NCBI RefSeq assembly: GCF_900142545.1 | Contig: NZ_FRBF01000014.1 | Span: 1-64,000 of the forward strand | Direction: 5' to 3' | DNA length: 64,000 nucleotides | Source: Fibrobacter sp. UWT2 | GTDB taxonomy: Bacteria; Fibrobacterota; Fibrobacteria; Fibrobacterales; Fibrobacteraceae | In this document: piece by piece, positions 5,319 to 59,113 of the stretch | Layout: each line of letters begins with the position of its first letter | Numbering within the stretch: the stretch's first letter is position 1 | Program-made: the position numbers and the translations under genes | Notes under the pieces: generated by a model | What the model was told of the DNA's origin: nothing | The model's database searches: none | The model's input: only the letters and a program-made list of their open reading frames with translations

Positions 5319-6449
5319 TCACATGACTTCCAAGAGCAATTTTTCGTCGGGCATGACTGCTTTCAGTTTTTCCGGCATAACCTTGTAGGTTGCAACACCC
5401 ATAGGCTGGTTGTAATCTTGCAACAGATACTCAACAAACGACCTGTCCGCGCCCTTACACAGAATAATGCCGATGACCGGATTTTCGTTCGCCTTCCGTT
5501 CATCGTCATTCAACACGCGCATGTATGCCGAGAGCTGTCCGAGATATGCAGGCTTAAACTCCCCTTTCTTTAATTCCACAACAACAAGACTCTGCAACTC
5601 ACGATTATAGAAGAGCAGATCGACCCACATGTCGTGCTCAAGTTTTTCGATATGAACTTGATGGCCGACGTACGTGAAATCCTTTCCAAACGTCAGGATA
5701 AAATTCTTGACATTTTGGACAATGGAATTTTCAACAACGCGTTCGTCAATATCCTGGGGATTGCGCTCGTCGAGTTCTTCCACATTGACAAAGTCAAGCA
5801 GGTATTCGTCCTTGAACATCGAGATCGCCTTTTGCGCATGGAGCGTTTTGGGCAAGGTAAGGGCGAAGTTATTGGGAATCTGTCCCTGGTGATGAAACAA
5901 GTCCGCCTTGAGATAATCACGTAGGGTATACTTGTCCCAATGATTCAGGATGGATTGATGTATATAGAAAGCACGTTCTTCCAATGATGAGCATTTCCCC
6001 AAAATTTCTATATGATGCGTAAAACTCAGTGCTAAAAATTCGGAGAAGTCCAAATCGCCCGCCATTGGCGGTCGATTTATATCAAGAAGCGCAAAAATCG
6101 GTATTTTTGCCGATTTTTCTTCATTTTCGGCATTTTCCAATTCGCCCGCCATCGGCGGACGATTTAAAAAGCTACTCCATTCTTCATAGAATTGGCGCAT
6201 TTTTTTAATACTTGTGGGCGAAAAACCTCTTAAACCCGGCAATTCCCGCCGAAGTTGAGCACTTATCGTGCCAATCGCCCCTGTTCCCCATGTTCCCTCA
6301 CGGGAATTCTCGGATACAAACTTGCCCACCGCATAATACAACGAAAGCATCTGCTTGTTAGCCGCCCGAGCAGTCTCCAACTGGCTTTCGAGAATGGCAG
6401 ACTTTATCTGCTGAACAGCATCGTTATAAAACGGGCTTATTTTATCCAT
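5319..6449 (-). CDS. DUF1016 (YhcG-type) PD-(D/E)XK nuclease with palindromic inserts
   Basis: A 376-residue two-domain protein. The N-terminal DUF1016 part includes SENSREGTWGTGAIGTISAQ. The C-terminal nuclease core has MWVDLLFYNRELQSLVVVELK (D, then ExK). Known relatives are putative DNA nucleases or recombinases found in defence islands. The ATG at 6449 is chosen because GGAGG lies 5 nt before it; an upstream in-frame ATG would swallow that site. The linker between the two domains carries NRPPMAGEL and NRPPMAGDL, each encoded by a near-perfect palindrome, and this makes the linker longer than that of the second DUF1016 gene at 20739. Its leader is shared with the ORF6N gene. Confidence 0.88.
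   Translation of the reverse strand: MDKISPFYNDAVQQIKSAILESQLETARAANKQMLSLYYAVGKFVSENSREGTWGTGAIGTISAQLRRELPGLRGFSPTSIKKMRQFYEEWSSFLNRPPMAGELENAENEEKSAKIPIFALLDINRPPMAGDLDFSEFLALSFTHHIEILGKCSSLEERAFYIHQSILNHWDKYTLRDYLKADLFHHQGQIPNNFALTLPKTLHAQKAISMFKDEYLLDFVNVEELDERNPQDIDERVVENSIVQNVKNFILTFGKDFTYVGHQVHIEKLEHDMWVDLLFYNRELQSLVVVELKKGEFKPAYLGQLSAYMRVLNDDERKANENPVIGIILCKGADRSFVEYLLQDYNQPMGVATYKVMPEKLKAVMPDEKLLLEVM
6052..6078. repeat. Palindromic insert 1 in the DUF1016 linker
   Basis: Two 12-base arms (AAATCGCCCGCC and GGCGGTCGATTT) around ATT, with one mismatch. Read in frame on the minus strand it encodes NRPPMAG. The core CG-NN-CGCC-ATY-GGCG-NN-CGATTTA recurs at 6141-6165 and 8260-8283. Confidence 0.8.
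6141..6165. repeat. Palindromic insert 2 in the DUF1016 linker
   Basis: Arms TCGCCCGCC and GGCGGACGA around ATC, followed by TTTAAA. Same family as the copy at 6052. It is also in frame and encodes NRPPMAGEL, so the protein carries the peptide twice, about 27 codons apart. Confidence 0.8.
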
Positions 6450-6452
6450 TAC

Positions 6453-6640
6453 TGCCTCCATGTGGTCGCAATTTGTGACGCCGCTTTCGCGGCTGGTTTA
6501 TGTTAGAGGCGTTCTTGCATAACCAGAAAATCAATTAACGCAAAAACGCACCTCGCCTTAAAACAGCGAGATGCGTTCAGCGGTAATGTACGTAATATCT
6601 AAAAAGTTAGCAAGGGAGGCAAGAAAATTTTACAACTCCG
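6453..6640 (-). promoter_or_regulatory. Structured 5' leader of the DUF1016 gene (leader family, copy 1)
   Basis: Minus strand, in order: a conserved GTAAAATTTTCTTGCCTCCC upstream block; -35 TTGCTA (6613-6608); 17 nt; -10 TACATT (6590-6585); a perfect-stem hairpin with 11-base arms at 6576-6566 and 6556-6546 followed by TTTTTG, which looks like an intrinsic terminator placed right at the start of the RNA; a hairpin CTGGTTATG...CATAAACCAG; a GCCGC-GAAA-GCGGC tetraloop hairpin (6493-6480); then the GGAGG site. CGCCTCTA (6511-6504) can pair with TGGAGGC of that site. The leader holds a five-codon frame MQERL. Copy 2 lies at 8095-8260 and copy 3 at 59115-59260. Confidence 0.75.
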
Positions 6641-7011: not shown

Positions 7012-8091
7012 TCACTTTCCACTTCTTACTGCAGCTATTTCGGCGTTGATTTCGTTGAGTGTCATGTCGGCGGAACTAGCCTTCTCGGCGTCGGCGGAAA
7101 GTTGCTGCATGGTCCGGAACATTCGGTGTCTGTCATACAATTCCTTGAACATGTTTCGGTAGGCATCAACGTCGTCCAACTGGACGATAGTCGTAATCTT
7201 GTTGCCGGCATCCTTGCTCGAAGCTCCACAATGGAACAGCTTTTCACTTTTGGTCCTAAAGTCGACAAGAATATAGCGGTCGTGGAATTTGTGCGCCGCA
7301 GAAACCGTATCAATCGAAACGCCCGGCATTGCCGCACGAAAATCGTTGAGCATATCATCCGTTATGCGGGCATACCGATCACTCGCAATCAAAATAGATA
7401 CGCCCTTACGCGCATTCCGGAGCAAATTCAGCGTCTTGATGTCAACATAATTATCAACAACCAACAACGATTTCTTCGCCATGCCGTAAATCTGCGCATA
7501 GGCGACATCAGCTTCCAACTTCTGTCCGTTCAAAATTAAGAAGTGCTTGTATGTCGAGGGATCAACGAAGTTTTCCATGACTTTCTGAAGATCAGATTGA
7601 ATGACCGCTATATCCTTGGTATTTCTTTCAGTTTGCACGGCAATTTGGGCAATGCCGTCATAACCCAATAAATTCCGATTTTCAGCAATGATATAGTCTT
7701 TCATCTGCTTGAAAAGGCGAATAAGGGCCATACTTTGACGAATCGCAAGGTCACCTTTTAAAACCGTCATAAGCATATAGATGCCCTGTTCGGTGAAGGC
7801 ATACGGCAATTTTCGTGTTCCACCCCAACTTGATGTGCATTTTTTGCACATCAAGTTTTGCATTTCATCCTCACTCAATTGAAATCGAAAATCCTCCGCA
7901 AATCGATCAATGTTATTTTTTACCTGGCGATTGAAAAATCTCGTCTCGTATCCGTAAATCTCGGCCAAATCTGCATCGAGCATCACCTTGAGCCCGCGGA
8001 TGGTATATATCCGCGATTTGAGCAGGGTTTCGTCAATAAGCGGGAACTCCGATTTGACTGGCGCAACCGCCATATCATTCTTTTTAGCCAT
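7012..8091 (-). CDS. ORF6N-domain protein with PLD-like C-terminal part
   Basis: A 359-residue protein. Residues about 25-125 form an ORF6N DNA-binding domain (IYTIRGLKVMLDADLAEIYG, KNNIDRFAEDFRFQL, TSSWGGTRKLPYAFTEQG). The C-terminal half has QIYGMAKKSLLVVDNYVD and HKFHDRYILVDF, resembling phospholipase D-like folds seen in some prophage and abortive-infection proteins, although only one HxD-type motif is visible. GGAGG lies 4 nt before the ATG. The codons just before TSSWGG are a perfect 27-base hairpin (7829-7855). The gene has the same structured leader as the DUF1016 gene. A role in phage or plasmid control is inferred from context. Confidence 0.85.
   Translation of the reverse strand: MAKKNDMAVAPVKSEFPLIDETLLKSRIYTIRGLKVMLDADLAEIYGYETRFFNRQVKNNIDRFAEDFRFQLSEDEMQNLMCKKCTSSWGGTRKLPYAFTEQGIYMLMTVLKGDLAIRQSMALIRLFKQMKDYIIAENRNLLGYDGIAQIAVQTERNTKDIAVIQSDLQKVMENFVDPSTYKHFLILNGQKLEADVAYAQIYGMAKKSLLVVDNYVDIKTLNLLRNARKGVSILIASDRYARITDDMLNDFRAAMPGVSIDTVSAAHKFHDRYILVDFRTKSEKLFHCGASSKDAGNKITTIVQLDDVDAYRNMFKELYDRHRMFRTMQQLSADAEKASSADMTLNEINAEIAAVRSGK
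7829..7855. repeat. Palindrome inside the ORF6N gene
   Basis: Eleven-base perfect arms (CTTGATGTGCA and TGCACATCAAG) around TTTTT. In frame it encodes LMCKKCTS, directly before the conserved SWGG. A different palindrome occupies the matching codons of the ORF6N remnant at 24638-24660. Confidence 0.85.
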
Positions 8092-8094
8092 ACA

Positions 8095-8260
8095 GCCTCC
8101 ATGTAGCCGCGTTCGCGGCTGGTTGATGTTAGAGGCGTTCTTGCATAACCAGAAAGTCGATTAACGCAAAAAACGCACCTCGCCTTAAAACAGCGAGATG
8201 CGTTCAGCGGTAATGTATCTAAATATCAGAAAACTGGCAAGGGAGGCAAGAAAATTTTAC
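8095..8260 (-). promoter_or_regulatory. Structured 5' leader of the ORF6N gene (leader family, copy 2)
   Basis: Nearly identical to copy 1. Minus strand: upstream block GTAAAATTTTCTTGCCTCCC; -35 TTGCCA (8240-8235); 17 nt; -10 TACATT (8217-8212); hairpin arms at 8203-8193 and 8183-8173 with TTTTTTGCG behind them; CTGGTT...AACCAG hairpin; GCCGC-GAAC-GCGGC hairpin (8119-8106); GGAGG. The five-codon MQERL frame is present. The divergent helicase promoter begins about 85 bp away. Confidence 0.75.
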
Positions 8261-20559: not shown

Positions 20560-20738
20560 CTGCGTCTCCTTTTTTAGGGTGATTGTACCGTAATATCGCT
20601 TTTTGTCAGTTCAATGTAAAGAGAAAAATCTTTTTACAACGAAAATGGTCTCCACTAGCCCGAAAAAAGCGTGTATATATAAAGATAGGGACAGTCTCTA
20701 TTCGCCCAACGGGGGCGTTCCCGCTTTATGGAAAAAAA

Positions 20739-21899
20739 ATGACCCCAAGAATAGTAAGGTCGCACGATGTTCATGTTGATTCTGATTACTCCAAGTGGAT
20801 TGCCGAGCTTAAGCAACGGTATCGCTCGGCGCAAGTGAAGGCTGCCGTCAGGGTAAACACCGAAAAATTGCAGTTTAACTGGTCGCTAGGGCAAGATTTG
20901 GTCCACAAAAAGGCAGAAGAACGCTGGGGCGCGGGTGTCGTGGAGCAACTCAGCCTTGATTTGCGACGAGAATTCCCCGATACGGACGGATTTTCCGTGT
21001 CAAATCTTTGGTATATGAAGAAATGGTACTGTTTCTACACGCAAAAAGGTAATTCGACCAACTTTAATCAAGCTAATGACGAAAAACTCCAACGGCCCGT
21101 TGGAGAATTAGCCATGGGTAAATTCATGCGGTTTGAAAGTGTTCTGCCAACCATATTTACTAGTGTCCCTTGGGGGCAACATATAGATATTATAACCAAA
21201 TGTCGCAGTGTAGAGGAAGCTCTTTTCTACATAAAGCAGGTAGTCGAAAAAGGGTTAAGTCGCCCAGCCCTTCAAAACTGCATCAAGGCTGATCTTTACA
21301 GTCACCAAGGCAAGATTGTCAATAATTTTTCCGAAAATCTTCCCGAATTGCAAAGCAAATTGGTTCAAGAGGTGCTGAAAGAAAACTACGATTTCGGCTT
21401 TGCAACCGTAAGTCACGAGATTTATGACGAGGCAGAATTAGAAAATGCCCTGACGCAGAACGTCACTGAACTTTTGCTCGAAATGGGAACAGGTTTTGCT
21501 TTTATAGCGCGACAGAAAGAAATTATCGTAGGCAATCACAGTCGCAAGCTCGACCTGCTTTTTTACCATATCCGCTTGCGTTGCTTTGTCGTTTGCGAAT
21601 TGAAGGTAGTGCCATTCGAACCAGAATTCATCGGCAAGCTGAATTTCTACGTGAACGCGGTGGACAACTTGATGAAAGCCCCCGAAGACAACCCGACTAT
21701 CGGGCTGCTGATTTGCTCCAACATGGATTCGACCGATGTAAGGTGGTCTTTCCGAGGACTAGGTACGCCAATGGGAGTCGCCACATACAACAACATCCGC
21801 ATCAAGGATATGCTGCCCTCGAAGGAATTACTGATTGAACGCATGCATCAGGCACAAAAGGAGGTGCGCGCCACAAAGCGGATGATTCGAAAAAAATAG
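20739..21899 (+). CDS. Second DUF1016 (YhcG-type) nuclease
   Basis: A 386-residue relative of the gene at 5319-6449. The N-terminal part has SDYSKWIAELKQRYRSAQ and ERWGAGVVEQLSLDLRREFP; SVPWGQHIDIITKCRSVEEA opens the second half. The C-terminal nuclease has RKLDLLFYHIRLRCFVVCELK (D, then ExK). The linker just before SVPWGQ includes LQRPVGELAMG, encoded by a perfect 19-base palindrome (21087-21105). The ATG at 20739 is chosen as the first that gives a normal DUF1016 N-terminus; the upstream open frame reads as leader sequence. The leader contains the hairpin GCCCAACGGGGGC just before the gene, but not the shared leader family. Confidence 0.85.
   Translation: MTPRIVRSHDVHVDSDYSKWIAELKQRYRSAQVKAAVRVNTEKLQFNWSLGQDLVHKKAEERWGAGVVEQLSLDLRREFPDTDGFSVSNLWYMKKWYCFYTQKGNSTNFNQANDEKLQRPVGELAMGKFMRFESVLPTIFTSVPWGQHIDIITKCRSVEEALFYIKQVVEKGLSRPALQNCIKADLYSHQGKIVNNFSENLPELQSKLVQEVLKENYDFGFATVSHEIYDEAELENALTQNVTELLLEMGTGFAFIARQKEIIVGNHSRKLDLLFYHIRLRCFVVCELKVVPFEPEFIGKLNFYVNAVDNLMKAPEDNPTIGLLICSNMDSTDVRWSFRGLGTPMGVATYNNIRIKDMLPSKELLIERMHQAQKEVRATKRMIRKK
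21087..21105. repeat. Palindrome in the linker of the second DUF1016 gene
   Basis: CTCCAACGG-C-CCGTTGGAG, perfect nine-base arms. It is in frame and sits at the same inter-domain position as the NRPPMA inserts of the first DUF1016 gene, but its sequence is unrelated to theirs. Confidence 0.8.
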
Positions 21900-24559: not shown

Positions 24560-24591
24560 GTTGCCAACAGCACTGCAAGATCATCCCATAA

Positions 24592-24762
24592 AAAAACGAA
24601 GAATTGGAAGTCGGAAATTCCGACATCAAGTCGGCTTTAAAGTCACAAATTGTGACTTTAAACGATGAACACAAGAACGGGACCGCCGGGATGAGCGAAG
24701 AAGAAATCGAGGCCGAAATCAAGGCCGCGAGAGCCGAAAGGAAAAGTAAAAAGCCTCATTGA
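24592..24762 (+). pseudogene. Internal-deletion remnant of an ORF6N gene
   Basis: An open frame between stops gives KSALKSQIVTLN, which is the ORF6N segment that precedes the conserved LPYAFTEQG block, joined directly to MSEEEIEAEIKAARAERKSK, which resembles the tail MTLNEINAEIAAVRSGK of the intact ORF6N protein (7012-8091). The start and the central several hundred codons are missing. Two perfect palindromes lie in it: GTCGGAA-A-TTCCGAC at 24610-24624 and a 23-base one at 24638-24660. Confidence 0.5.
24638..24660. repeat. Perfect palindrome in the ORF6N remnant
   Basis: Arms TAAAGTCACAA and TTGTGACTTTA around a single A. It encodes LKSQIVTL, the position occupied by LMCKKCTS and another palindrome in the intact ORF6N gene. 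Confidence 0.8.
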
Positions 24763-24772
24763 GGTCGCAAAC

Positions 24773-24811
24773 TCTCTAAGGTCGGAAAAAACGACCTTAG
24801 AGAACGCTTTT
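24773..24811. terminator. Hairpin between the ORF6N remnant and the Fic gene
   Basis: Twelve-base perfect arms (TCTCTAAGGTCG and CGACCTTAGAGA) around a seven-base loop, followed by ACGCTTTT. It separates the remnant from the convergent Fic gene and probably ends the latter. Confidence 0.7.
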
Positions 24812-46163: not shown

Positions 46164-46727
46164 TCACCCTCTACATAATTTGCGCACATCAAAGACAAGC
46201 CCCTCACTAAACGGATCACCGCCATTTGCTGCGATGAATTTCGCATGAGGGATATCCGTCCTGTATGTCCACGGAATAGAATCGCCATCATCCGTGAACG
46301 CGTCTTTAGCATGCCATAAAGCAGAAATGTTATTCTTCTTTCCGGCGCCACGCTCCAATTTCCATTTTCCCTTTATACGTTTTAAGTGGAATTTTCCGCC
46401 TTCGAAACAATCACCTTCAGCAAAAATAGCACCTTCTAATTCAATCACATCGTCCGAATAACCCGTGACAACCACTAGCCCGTTTCGTTTCGCGCAAGCA
46501 GTTTCAACATCCGACAAGCCTTCGGAAAAATCGCGCATGCTAAGAATTTTGGCAAACTGTTCCGCAGAAAATGTTCGAGTTTTCATCCATAAAACATAAT
46601 CCACGATTCGCTTGTCTTTCTTACCGAAGTAGCCCATTGTCTTTTCTGCAATAACATTTAAGTCATCGCAAACGCTGGATACACCTTCTAAAAAAAGATG
46701 TATCTCGTTGATTTTGTTGTTAATCAT
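46164..46727 (-). CDS. Hypothetical protein coupled to the AlbA_2 gene
   Basis: A 187-residue protein of unknown family. The N-terminal part is helical (INEIHLFLEGVSSVCDDLNV); the C-terminal half has strands and Trp/His-rich sequence (NNISALWHAKDAFTDDGDS). Its ATG overlaps the stop codon of the upstream AlbA_2 gene (ATGA) and uses AAGGAG inside that gene, so the two proteins are made together and probably work together. It is convergent with the PL14-like gene, with only 3 bp between the two stops. Confidence 0.7.
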   Translation of the reverse strand: MINNKINEIHLFLEGVSSVCDDLNVIAEKTMGYFGKKDKRIVDYVLWMKTRTFSAEQFAKILSMRDFSEGLSDVETACAKRNGLVVVTGYSDDVIELEGAIFAEGDCFEGGKFHLKRIKGKWKLERGAGKKNNISALWHAKDAFTDDGDSIPWTYRTDIPHAKFIAANGGDPFSEGLVFDVRKLCRG

Positions 46728-48265
46728 ATTATTTCTCCTTGTTGATGGTTTTCTTCGATGATTTCCCAATATCCCTTTGTGTCACTACCTATTCGCTTGA
46801 TGAATTTATCTCGCAAAAGCGCTATGTGATATTTCACGGTACGGGGAGAAACATCCATTTTTTCGCTCAGTTCTTCGATAGTGGCATACGGATTAGTCAC
46901 AATCGCCAAATATGTTCTCTGGGCAATCTCAGGGCAATTTGGCGGCAAAATCAAGTCATTCTCAGGGCAATTTTCGCTATTTCTCTGGGCAATTTCAACG
47001 TTTTCTGGGCAATTATCACTTGTTCTCTGGGCAATCTCAGCCAATTTTAGCACTGTTATCGTTCTTTCAAGCGATATTTTTTGTGTATATTCGGGCTTAA
47101 GACCAAACTCTTTTTCCCACACAGAAAAAACTCCGGGGATTCCGCTCCCCGCCCGTTCACCGATATCGATCATAGAGAACATCTTAAGAATGGTGGCATT
47201 GCGTGGATCGGAAGTTCCACCGCTTATGGCTTCTTTTATGCTAAGCCTGAACATTCCCGGATTTTCAAAAACAAAGTAATCCTTGTATTTTTTGATAACA
47301 ACGCCAGCGCGGCCATAATAATCCGCATTCGCAAGTGTATTCAAAAGAATTTCTCGAATAGCCTTGTGAACAGGGGTGTCATCAACCCTATAAATCCCCT
47401 CAAGTTTGAATGGTCTCTTTATGTCTTCAGACAATTTATTTACGGTCTTGAAGAAAAAATCAAATACATTACCGCTCCATTCTCCCGAGCTTGAAACAAA
47501 GCGGTCCGACCATCTTGTCGTTTCATCAAAATGCTCCTGATAATCCAGGAAATAAAGCGGGTACTCATACACGATTTCCGACTCGTACCCGAACATCAAC
47601 AAGCCAGCTGCAGTCGGGTAAACCATTCCATCGTCTTGGTTTATTCTTGCGGCACCTATCTTTTTCAGGAATTCTATATCGGGAAGATAATTCCAAACAT
47701 GACCATCGTGAGACAAACGAAACCTTTGCCTGTAGTGGGTGATAGTTTCTTTGCTAAGTGAATCTAGGTCAACTTCTTTTACGATTTTACAATCTTGGCT
47801 TATATGGCCGGCATCGCGGTAAAGAGAGCCTACTTCTTCCCTTGAACAAAGGTAATCGCCTTCGCCGTTTCGCCTAAACGTCCCTGTAAACATATCCGTT
47901 CCCTTGAAAACAGGGCGATATATTCGATCGGCTCTAGGAACAGTAATCCAGAAAACTTTCTTTCCGTTAATATCCTTTATTTCAACATTATTGTTACCTA
48001 GGATATTAATGTTTACGACATTTTTATTGTTCACATTATCCCAAAACAATTTTTCCATACGCTCAGGATTCTCTACGCCTTCTATGGTAAACGTGTGATC
48101 CCTATTTTCCTTTACACCGAGGAGAATCAGACCCCCATCGGTATTTGCAAACGAGGAATAGGTTTCCCAAAGACTTTTGGGGAAACCGCCCTTGGCAAGC
48201 TTAGCTTCGAAGCGATTGCCTTCTCTGAACGAGTCGATATTGAAGTCTTTTAATAAATCTCCCAT
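46724..48265 (-). CDS. AlbA_2/Schlafen-like ATP-binding protein with winged helix
   Basis: A 513-residue protein. N-terminal AlbA_2 domain: FEAKLAKGGFPKSLWETYSS, ANTDGGLILLGVKEN, RVNGEGDYLCSREE-type sequence. A HATPase-like part follows near residue 330 (AIREILLNTLANADYYG, ENPGMFRLSIKEAISGGTSD, FSMIDIGERAGSGIPGVF). The end is a winged helix (ATIEELSEKMDVSPRTVKYH). Between them lies a linker with repeated NCPE and EIAQR units. Family members are often regulators or defence proteins. GGAG before the ATG at 48265 fixes the start; twenty codons upstream are open but unlikely to be translated. A structured RNA lies upstream. Confidence 0.85.
   Translation of the reverse strand: MGDLLKDFNIDSFREGNRFEAKLAKGGFPKSLWETYSSFANTDGGLILLGVKENRDHTFTIEGVENPERMEKLFWDNVNNKNVVNINILGNNNVEIKDINGKKVFWITVPRADRIYRPVFKGTDMFTGTFRRNGEGDYLCSREEVGSLYRDAGHISQDCKIVKEVDLDSLSKETITHYRQRFRLSHDGHVWNYLPDIEFLKKIGAARINQDDGMVYPTAAGLLMFGYESEIVYEYPLYFLDYQEHFDETTRWSDRFVSSSGEWSGNVFDFFFKTVNKLSEDIKRPFKLEGIYRVDDTPVHKAIREILLNTLANADYYGRAGVVIKKYKDYFVFENPGMFRLSIKEAISGGTSDPRNATILKMFSMIDIGERAGSGIPGVFSVWEKEFGLKPEYTQKISLERTITVLKLAEIAQRTSDNCPENVEIAQRNSENCPENDLILPPNCPEIAQRTYLAIVTNPYATIEELSEKMDVSPRTVKYHIALLRDKFIKRIGSDTKGYWEIIEENHQQGEII
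46918..47037. repeat. Repeated GGGCAAT units in the AlbA_2 linker
   Basis: GGGCAA (minus strand TTGCCC) begins at 46921, 46932, 46965, 46987, 47007 and 47029, mostly in steps of 11 or multiples of 11 bp, usually followed by T and preceded by TCTCT or CTCA. It encodes the NCPE/IAQR linker. Confidence 0.75.
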
Positions 48266-48360
48266 CGTATTCTCCATTGCGAGATTACACGGCAAACGCG
48301 CAAACACGCCGAAAGAACGGCGCACCTTGCACAGTTATGTTTTTATTATGGGGATGATCT

Positions 48361-57790: not shown

Positions 57791-59113
57791 TTATTTCAAG
57801 ATTTGCCACCGTCCATTTTTTCGAGCTCCTACGCGGGCAATACACGATTTTTCCCGTAGAGCTTTCAAAGTCCTATTAATCGTCGGTTCGGAATAACCCG
57901 TTTCATGCATAAGTAAGGGAACTGTAATGGAAGGATTCCGCTTTATTTCTGCGTAAATCAGCGATTCCGTTTCCGTAAGTTTTATCCTATCGTTTATCCT
58001 ATCATTTATCCTATCATTTATCCTATCACCCAACCGCCGCAATCCTTCAAAATAGAACGAAGTCCGCATGAAATGATCCGTAAACGAGAACGCCTTTTCA
58101 TCATAGGAACGCAGAATACGCCGCATGCCGCTCCCGAGCTGTTCGACCATATCCAAGTCATGGAAAATACGCATAAGTTCGCGATTGCGCGGCATAGAAC
58201 AGCAGTTGAAGAAATCTTCTTTTGAAAGGCCTTCCACCAACCCGCCGTAGTTTGTTATTTCCATCCTGTCAGAAAAAATCTCAAACAGGGGCGGGACCTC
58301 TTTCGTGTAATCATTGTGAACGACAGCGTTGATTACCGCCTCGCGCAAGGCAACCGGGTCGACCAGCGGCTTTTCGATACGTTCCATAGGTGTAATTTGA
58401 GCATGCGTAATGTTCGCCACCTGCAATCGCATGAGCACTGATTTTACAGCCTTAATAACGCTACAATAGCCGAATTCCTCATTTTCAATAAGGTCATATT
58501 TGTCCGTGCCTTTGTACCGCGCCACCTTTATGGATACTCCGTTTTCATCAGCAAGGAGATAAGCATTGTAATTGTATTTTCCGTCGGGAGTAAGCAACTC
58601 CAGCGTCTTGGCAAACTGACTGTTCAAGGGCTTTTTGCTCTCTTCGTAGTAGATTTTTAACTGACTAAATGTCAAGTCTTGCCGCGGAGCCGGAATCTTG
58701 GCAAGAGAAATCTTTGCGCGAGAAGCAAAAGTTTCTAGGATTATCTTTTCGCTCATTCCATGGACTGAACTTCCCACACGCACAAAGCAACCTTCGGGCG
58801 TCATACCCGCCTTTTTTAGATAATACGGTTTTTCCGGGCCACCCGAAATCGCCACATGAACGATATTTTTGTTGTCTTTTTCCTCCGTCACGACTTCAAA
58901 GAGTCCGATAGCATTCGGCTTGATATTGTTCAAGATCCTATCCGCTACTTGACGCTGCACATGGTCTATGTCCTTTACTCCATATACAGAGCCATCGTCA
59001 TTGACTCCAATATAGATGTGTCCGCCTGTAGAATTCAGAAAAGCAATTACAGATCGCTCAAAAGTTTCGGACAGTTCTCGCTTGTATTCAACAAGATGAT
59101 TTTCGCTGTTCAT
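57791..59113 (-). CDS. AlbA_2/Schlafen-like protein with a tandem-repeat linker
   Basis: A 440-residue protein. The AlbA_2 domain is at the N-terminus (VEYKRELSETFERSVIAFLN, STGGHIYIGVNDDGSVYG, CFVRVGSSVHGMSE). HATPase-like residues follow (ALREAVINAVVHNDYT, MEITNYGGLVEGLSKEDFFN, EQLGSGMRRILRSYD). A linker with DRINDRINDRINDRIK joins a winged helix (ITVPLLMHETGYSEPTINRT). GGAGG lies 4 nt before the ATG and can pair with an upstream CGCCTC. It carries leader copy 3. It lies upstream of hsdR on the same strand, with 86 bp between them. Confidence 0.87.
   Translation of the reverse strand: MNSENHLVEYKRELSETFERSVIAFLNSTGGHIYIGVNDDGSVYGVKDIDHVQRQVADRILNNIKPNAIGLFEVVTEEKDNKNIVHVAISGGPEKPYYLKKAGMTPEGCFVRVGSSVHGMSEKIILETFASRAKISLAKIPAPRQDLTFSQLKIYYEESKKPLNSQFAKTLELLTPDGKYNYNAYLLADENGVSIKVARYKGTDKYDLIENEEFGYCSVIKAVKSVLMRLQVANITHAQITPMERIEKPLVDPVALREAVINAVVHNDYTKEVPPLFEIFSDRMEITNYGGLVEGLSKEDFFNCCSMPRNRELMRIFHDLDMVEQLGSGMRRILRSYDEKAFSFTDHFMRTSFYFEGLRRLGDRINDRINDRINDRIKLTETESLIYAEIKRNPSITVPLLMHETGYSEPTINRTLKALREKSCIARVGARKNGRWQILK
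57981..58028. repeat. 12-bp tandem repeat in the AlbA_2 gene
   Basis: Four units of ATCCTATC(A/G)TTT-type sequence in frame, encoding (DRIN)n. Gain or loss of a 12-bp unit would change linker length by four residues without a frameshift. Confidence 0.88.

Follow-up and report, generated by a model that had tools for sequence, protein, structure and literature searches.

A palindrome inside a Fibrobacter ORF6N gene as a probable operator for the protein that the gene encodes

An intact ORF6N gene in the window (the whole stretch of 64,000 nucleotides of Fibrobacter sp. UWT2 DNA that was analysed) contains a perfect palindrome within its reading frame, and the inner letters of this palindrome are those predicted from the DNA-reading helix of the encoded protein. 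Across the ORF6N family such palindromes occur at a fixed position, are symmetric, are constrained at the level of the DNA and covary with one face of the recognition helix. From these sequence relationships, we infer that the palindrome serves as an operator within the gene, being the cognate site of the encoded protein, and that its role is most likely autoregulatory (we assign this reading a probability of about 0.68). The sequence-only reading had suspected binding of the palindrome by the ORF6N protein itself. This suspicion is strongly supported, and such binding is very probable because the letters of the palindrome are predictable from the encoded helix. Autoregulation via the palindrome is somewhat favoured.

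The window protein matches Pfam PF10543 (ORF6N; E=3e-33, 114 bits compared with a gathering cut-off of 27.8) and the PADLOC model PDC-S05, a phage-defence candidate (E=3e-105). ORF6N genes, this one included, are candidate phage-defence genes, as judged by sequence match. A search of the genome for ORF6N returned this gene as the sole match. The genome's relatives and its FISUMP proteins mark it as Fibrobacter-like. In the AlphaFold model, the helix-turn-helix comprises helix 39-46, a turn and helix 50-59, the second being the recognition helix, with key residues R51 (p1), F52 (p2), R55 (p5) and N59 (p9). The residues encoded by the palindrome are the only low-confidence stretch within the folded DNA-binding domain of this model. 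The modelled C-terminal part is a PLD fold. Foldseek matched it to phospholipase D, to NucT and to Zucchini with E-values between 2e-4 and 2e-3, and the last two gave a target-normalised TM-score of about 0.5. Residues H270-x-R272...D277...G289-x-S291 of this domain are invariant in the alignment. The catalytic HxKx4D motif is represented in this family by an invariant HxRx4D (H270, R272, D277), with R replacing K.

Table 1. Positions of the features within the window
Feature	Position	Strand	Description	Basis
ORF6N gene, 359 aa	7012-8091	minus	intact; N-terminal ORF6N DNA-binding domain, C-terminal PLD-like nuclease fold (modelled)	
PLD-like domain, about residues 184-305	7177-7542	minus		alignment, model, Foldseek
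Intragenic palindrome	7827-7857	minus	AACTTGATGTGCA-TTTTT-TGCACATCAAGTT	sequence, palindrome scan
Core dyad	7835-7849	minus	GTGCA-NNNNN-TGCAC	recognition code from own helix
Recognition helix, residues 50-59	7915-7944	minus	TRFFNRQVKN	covariation with palindrome code, structure model
Leader	8092-8160	minus	GCCTCTAACATCAACC-AGCCGCG-AA-CGCGGCT-ACATGGAGGC; common to ORF6N and DUF1016 genes	
Orphan palindrome, ORF6N operator class	24610-24624		GTCGGAAATTCCGAC; code GTCGG	sequence, array homology
Orphan palindrome, ORF6N operator class	24636-24662		TTTAAAGTCACAA-A-TTGTGACTTTAAA; code GTCAC	palindrome scan, array homology
RelB/PIN-type toxin-antitoxin tail	24661-24764	plus	joined to palindrome array	

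The palindrome of the window gene has perfect arms of 13 bp, a 5-nt loop and the half-site GATGTGCA, with the class dyad centred at 7842, and codes for N-LMCKKCTS-S directly ahead of SWGG. An 11-bp hairpin had earlier been described at 7829-7855; its perfection and its coding of LMCKKCTS before SWGG were borne out, and the arm length is corrected to 13 bp.

ORF6N genes were drawn from the genus Fibrobacter, from other phyla and from viral contigs. The best palindrome within about 640 nt falls in the FQL...FTEQG segment in 43 of 48 distinct genes of a first set and in 72 of 95 genes of a second. Among 141 such segments, taken from many phyla, longest perfect arms average 10.4 bp, with a median of 12, compared with a mean of 5.1 bp when synonymous codons were resampled. 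Arms of at least 10 bp occur in 81 of the 141 segments vs. 0.29% of the resamples and 5 of 281 flank segments. Symmetry at this segment is thus common across the family, rather than lacking in most genes, and the proposal that unlike palindromes occupy one homologous ORF6N site beyond chance holds family-wide. The palindromes are nearly always found at the same loop, and have many different sequences in two reading frames. One of them, GGTCACAAATTGTGACC, is read as RSQIVT or as LVTNCDR in different genes, and matches the helix in both cases. Some genes contain two or more palindromes in tandem, and some have two to four with different codes. An exact-palindrome scan of viral contigs returned mostly chance sites (3 of 160 in ORF6N frames).

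Constraint on the DNA is apparent in gene pairs with flank identities of 70-88%. In 11% of these pairs the 27-nt core shows no difference at all (1.1% for flank windows), and in 20% it is strongly diverged (4% for flank windows). In the orthologues L625 and L627, the core differs by exactly two substitutions placed symmetrically about the centre (a compensatory pair) and is otherwise invariant, amid strongly diverged flanks.

When overall identity is equal, the domain columns most associated with the inner bases of the palindrome map to a single helix face (i, i+3 and i+7 are the top three). The dyad class can be written 5'-GTXYZ-N5-Z'Y'X'AC-3', with half-site GT-XYZ-AA, and XYZ follows four residues of the recognition helix. 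XY is set by p5, with p2: Q at p5 corresponds to CA, E to CG if p2 is R and to CC if p2 is K, R to GC, and K to TC. Z is set by p9 (N corresponds to A, R to C, and A, T or Y to G), and p1 influences the next bases outward of XYZ. Sorted by half-site, the helices form clean classes: GTCAA with xFNQQVKNN, GTCAC with xLNQxVKRN, GTCGA with RFNEQVKNN, GTCGC with R[LI]NEQVKRN, GTCGG with RFNEQVK(A/T)N, GTCCA with KFNEQVKNN, GTGCA with xFNRQVKNN, GTGCC with xxRxVKRN, and (A/T)TTCC with NLNKAVKRN. For the window protein, R55 (GC) and N59 (A) predict GTGCA, the sequence that its gene carries.

This rule gets the best dyad right in 34 of 35 Fibrobacter genes (permuted mean 7.6) and in 64 of 73 other genes (permuted mean 12.8) of a non-redundant set; six of the nine misses among the latter carry the predicted dyad elsewhere in the segment. 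A residue-to-base table trained on Fibrobacter and applied to other phyla recovered XYZ in 60 of 64 cases and Z in 69 of 69 (majority class, 20 of 69), the code columns having been picked on the whole data set ahead of this split. Both members match their own helix in 49 of 58 disjoint gene pairs with different helices, or in 54 if any dyad is counted; some of these pairs are 90-98% identical elsewhere, and the test controls relatedness only in part, ORF6N genes not being independent. The 12.9 kb of loop sequence contains 91 helix-coded dyads, compared with a single one in 113 kb from other parts of these genes, and 132 of 140 genes have at least one.

Helix and palindrome are about 75 bp apart and could move together by recombination. 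The ORF6N pairs L258/L340, L186/L259 and L016/L036 are 93-98% identical elsewhere, and their helix and palindrome differ together, as if a specificity module had been exchanged in one piece. A tentative extension, which we consider possible, is that ORF6N genes form a widespread self-addressed family, in which the coding sequence holds the address for its own product. Helix and address would be exchanged as one module and alleles would recognise themselves and not their relatives, with self-recognition, perhaps together with the PLD-like domain, governing the expression, spread or competition of alleles.

Dyads of some kind occur no more than 250 bp upstream of 23 genes, and in 8 of these the code is the one predicted by the helix (permuted mean 3.2, p=0.0014). 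An earlier upstream test using the in-gene core gave a weak result (5, compared with a permuted mean of 1.6 and maximum of 4), and only a minority of ORF6N genes have a clear upstream site. Several of the helix-matching sites are 21-45 bp ahead of the start codon (L038, L188, L227 and L244). At L227 and L244, the upstream site agrees with the helix and the in-gene palindrome disagrees. These helix-matching upstream sites point to regulation. Upstream of the window ORF6N gene, no helix-matching site was found.

In the mechanism we propose, the dyad 5'-GTXYZ-N5-Z'Y'X'AC-3' would be recognised by ORF6N proteins acting as a dimer through their helix-turn-helix. The site would fall in a disordered protein loop that accepts almost any peptide, and would change in step with the helix. 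The most likely use may be negative autoregulation, the gene being a nuclease-linked defence gene that is potentially harmful. Bound protein could block elongation or, where a gene has another site close to its start codon, could loop to it, as at the internal operators of lac and gal.

Regions upstream of ORF6N genes have other shared elements. As had been noted from the sequence alone, the leader is common to the ORF6N and DUF1016 families: in the window, the ORF6N leader and the DUF1016 leader (6450-6530) have the form GCCTCTAACAT(C/A)AACC-palindrome-ACATGGAGGC. The leader GCCTC is complementary to the GGAGGC ribosome-binding site and can pair with it. On inspection by eye, an attC-like integron site was rejected as an account of the leader. 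AlbA_2-like genes in relatives (L618 and L621) are preceded by the same leader, with an ORF6N-class palindrome 13-14 nt ahead of the start codon. In the AlbA_2-like genes at 46724-48325 and 57791-59113, repeated linkers (NCPENVEIAQRNSENCPEN; NDRINDRINDRIND) lie ahead of the C-terminal part. At L627, L625, L106 and L097, between two and five ORF6N-class palindromes separated by linkers of about 20 nt form intergenic arrays, some of them upstream of ORF6N genes. An ORF6N-class palindrome also occurs right after the stop of a gene resembling the KilA-N family (L142:3627-3651; G000:C5), and sites of this kind lie close to the ends of genes in further Fibrobacter genomes (L604, L612 and L614).

DUF1016 genes (YhcG, PDC-S02) are present at 5319-6461 and 20583-21899 in the window and at loci L148-L177. 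Their palindromes are at one place, mostly just ahead of a W[ST]HY/PWGH motif, and are unlike in sequence. Arms reach at least 11 bp in 21 of 29 genes (null 0.1%), and up to 14 bp, in keeping with the parallel drawn earlier between the two families. No helix code was found for DUF1016, the number of genes being too small to see one. The self-address principle may apply in DUF1016 genes too.

The sequence-only reading had paired the window palindrome with one at 24638-24660, taken to lie at the matching codons (LKSQIVTL) of an ORF6N remnant. The second palindrome is indeed perfect, and we identified another of the same class beside it (Table 1). However, a RelB/PIN-type tail, AGMSEEEIEAEIKAARAERK, closes the reading frame at this site, and the genome search found no ORF6N sequence at 24638-24660. 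The interval 24590-24676 matches the array of intergenic palindromes that directly precedes an ORF6N gene in L627 (79% over 87 bp, E=8e-14), and 24661-24745 aligns with toxin-antitoxin tails at the same locus (88-92%). An ORF6N remnant is ruled out by this tail and these homologies; the site is outside any ORF6N gene, and the pair fails as an example of the family pattern. The reading of region 24590-24764 that best fits the alignments is a scar left by loss of an ORF6N/toxin-antitoxin segment, with its palindrome an orphan site. A palindrome at 24773-24803, TCTCTAAGGTCG-GAAAAAA-CGACCTTAGAGA, adjoins a Fic gene, and its core is that of the in-gene palindrome of the L183 ORF6N gene.

It is possible, although unlikely, that the palindrome is the target of the protein in a selfish or nuclease sense. 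Cognate palindromes would be cut or nicked by the PLD-like domain, and the copy within the gene would be used for homing, for replacing alleles or for excluding rival copies that share its code. The C-terminal PLD-like fold, the high copy number and wide spread of ORF6N, and the many broken gene halves that stop at the palindrome are consistent with this, as are arms of at least 10 bp in 60 of 88 genes with the PLD-like domain vs. 8 of 31 without it (p=5e-5, relatedness uncontrolled). However, the helix-coded dyad is kept in 32 of 37 genes without the domain, the HKD motif has R instead of K, and any gene with an intact site would be a target for cutting by the protein that it encodes. Moreover, insertion accounts for most of the broken copies. 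We identified a 1455-bp IS3-family element (with Pfam rve and HTH_21 matches) in ORF6N-class palindrome loops of relatives (L094:469-1923 and L059:7485-8939), and two complete copies show a target duplication of 3 bp. Of 17 element ends recovered by DNA search, 14 are in palindrome loops, and many ORF6N genes in relatives are split because the element inserted there; the element is absent from this genome. Insertion sequences that target REP palindromes have precedent (IS1397, ISPpu9 and others; PMC1525189).

The occurrence of this element in the loop in relatives, along with tandem palindromes and intergenic arrays, could also suggest a mobile palindromic repeat (REP-like or Rickettsia-type) that inserted in the gene and acts as a landing pad for insertion sequences. 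We consider this very unlikely, as the palindrome is always at one codon position of one domain, its sequence tracks the helix rather than an element consensus, and insertion is a consequence and not the cause. Copies are few genome-wide, and the 5 class palindromes in a 464 kb sample rule out a genome-wide REP-like repeat. A functionless palindrome that perpetuates itself by template switching, with changes copied from arm to arm in a protein-tolerant loop, is extremely unlikely. The loop is disordered and both arms change together, as this would require, but template switching does not account for the match, in different phyla and reading frames, between XYZ and residues of a separate helix, or for the same code in upstream sites, and is already largely refuted by the code. 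The least probable explanation is that the palindrome acts as an mRNA hairpin (attenuation or an RNase site). Although the RNA would form a 13-bp stem, sense-strand mismatches in the stems are less often G-U (16) than A-C (35); G-U is not tolerated, the reverse of RNA selection. We rejected the hairpin on this mismatch spectrum, and the code ties the palindrome to a DNA-reading helix.

The operator reading bears on many genes, as ORF6N proteins are common in bacteria and phages. The code yields a predicted site for most of them from sequence, explains the high variability of the LRSQIVTS-like segment of the family, and makes control of a widespread phage-defence candidate directly testable. 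It also offers a natural recognition code based on one helix, and a case in which the DNA that a protein would read has shaped the sequence that encodes it. In the literature searched, neither an ORF6N DNA target nor these palindromes are described, and no palindrome or DNA target is described for PDC-S05.

Intragenic auxiliary operators are familiar from lac O2 within lacZ and the internal gal operator within galE. As in those systems, the proposed ORF6N operator is a repressor site in coding sequence, possibly paired with a promoter-near site. Unlike them, it is found within the gene for the DNA-binding protein, at a codon position fixed family-wide across phyla, and a readable code links changes in the site to changes in the helix. 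The palindromic elements of Rickettsia also occur in reading frames, as one element family copied into unrelated genes, whereas the ORF6N palindrome varies in sequence from gene to gene and tracks the helix. REP/BIME sequences (PMC1525189) share with ORF6N palindromes a palindrome-specific insertion sequence. REP/BIME are extragenic, high in copy number and of one consensus, whereas the ORF6N palindromes are intragenic, low in copy number, of many sequences and tied to the DNA-binding domain of the host gene. Mitochondrial genes of Nematomorpha keep perfect inverted repeats inside functional protein genes (PMC6649704). Those repeats occur in many genes, both arms encode conserved protein and they have no known DNA-binding partner, whereas ORF6N palindromes are found at one fixed disordered loop and have a predicted cognate reader.
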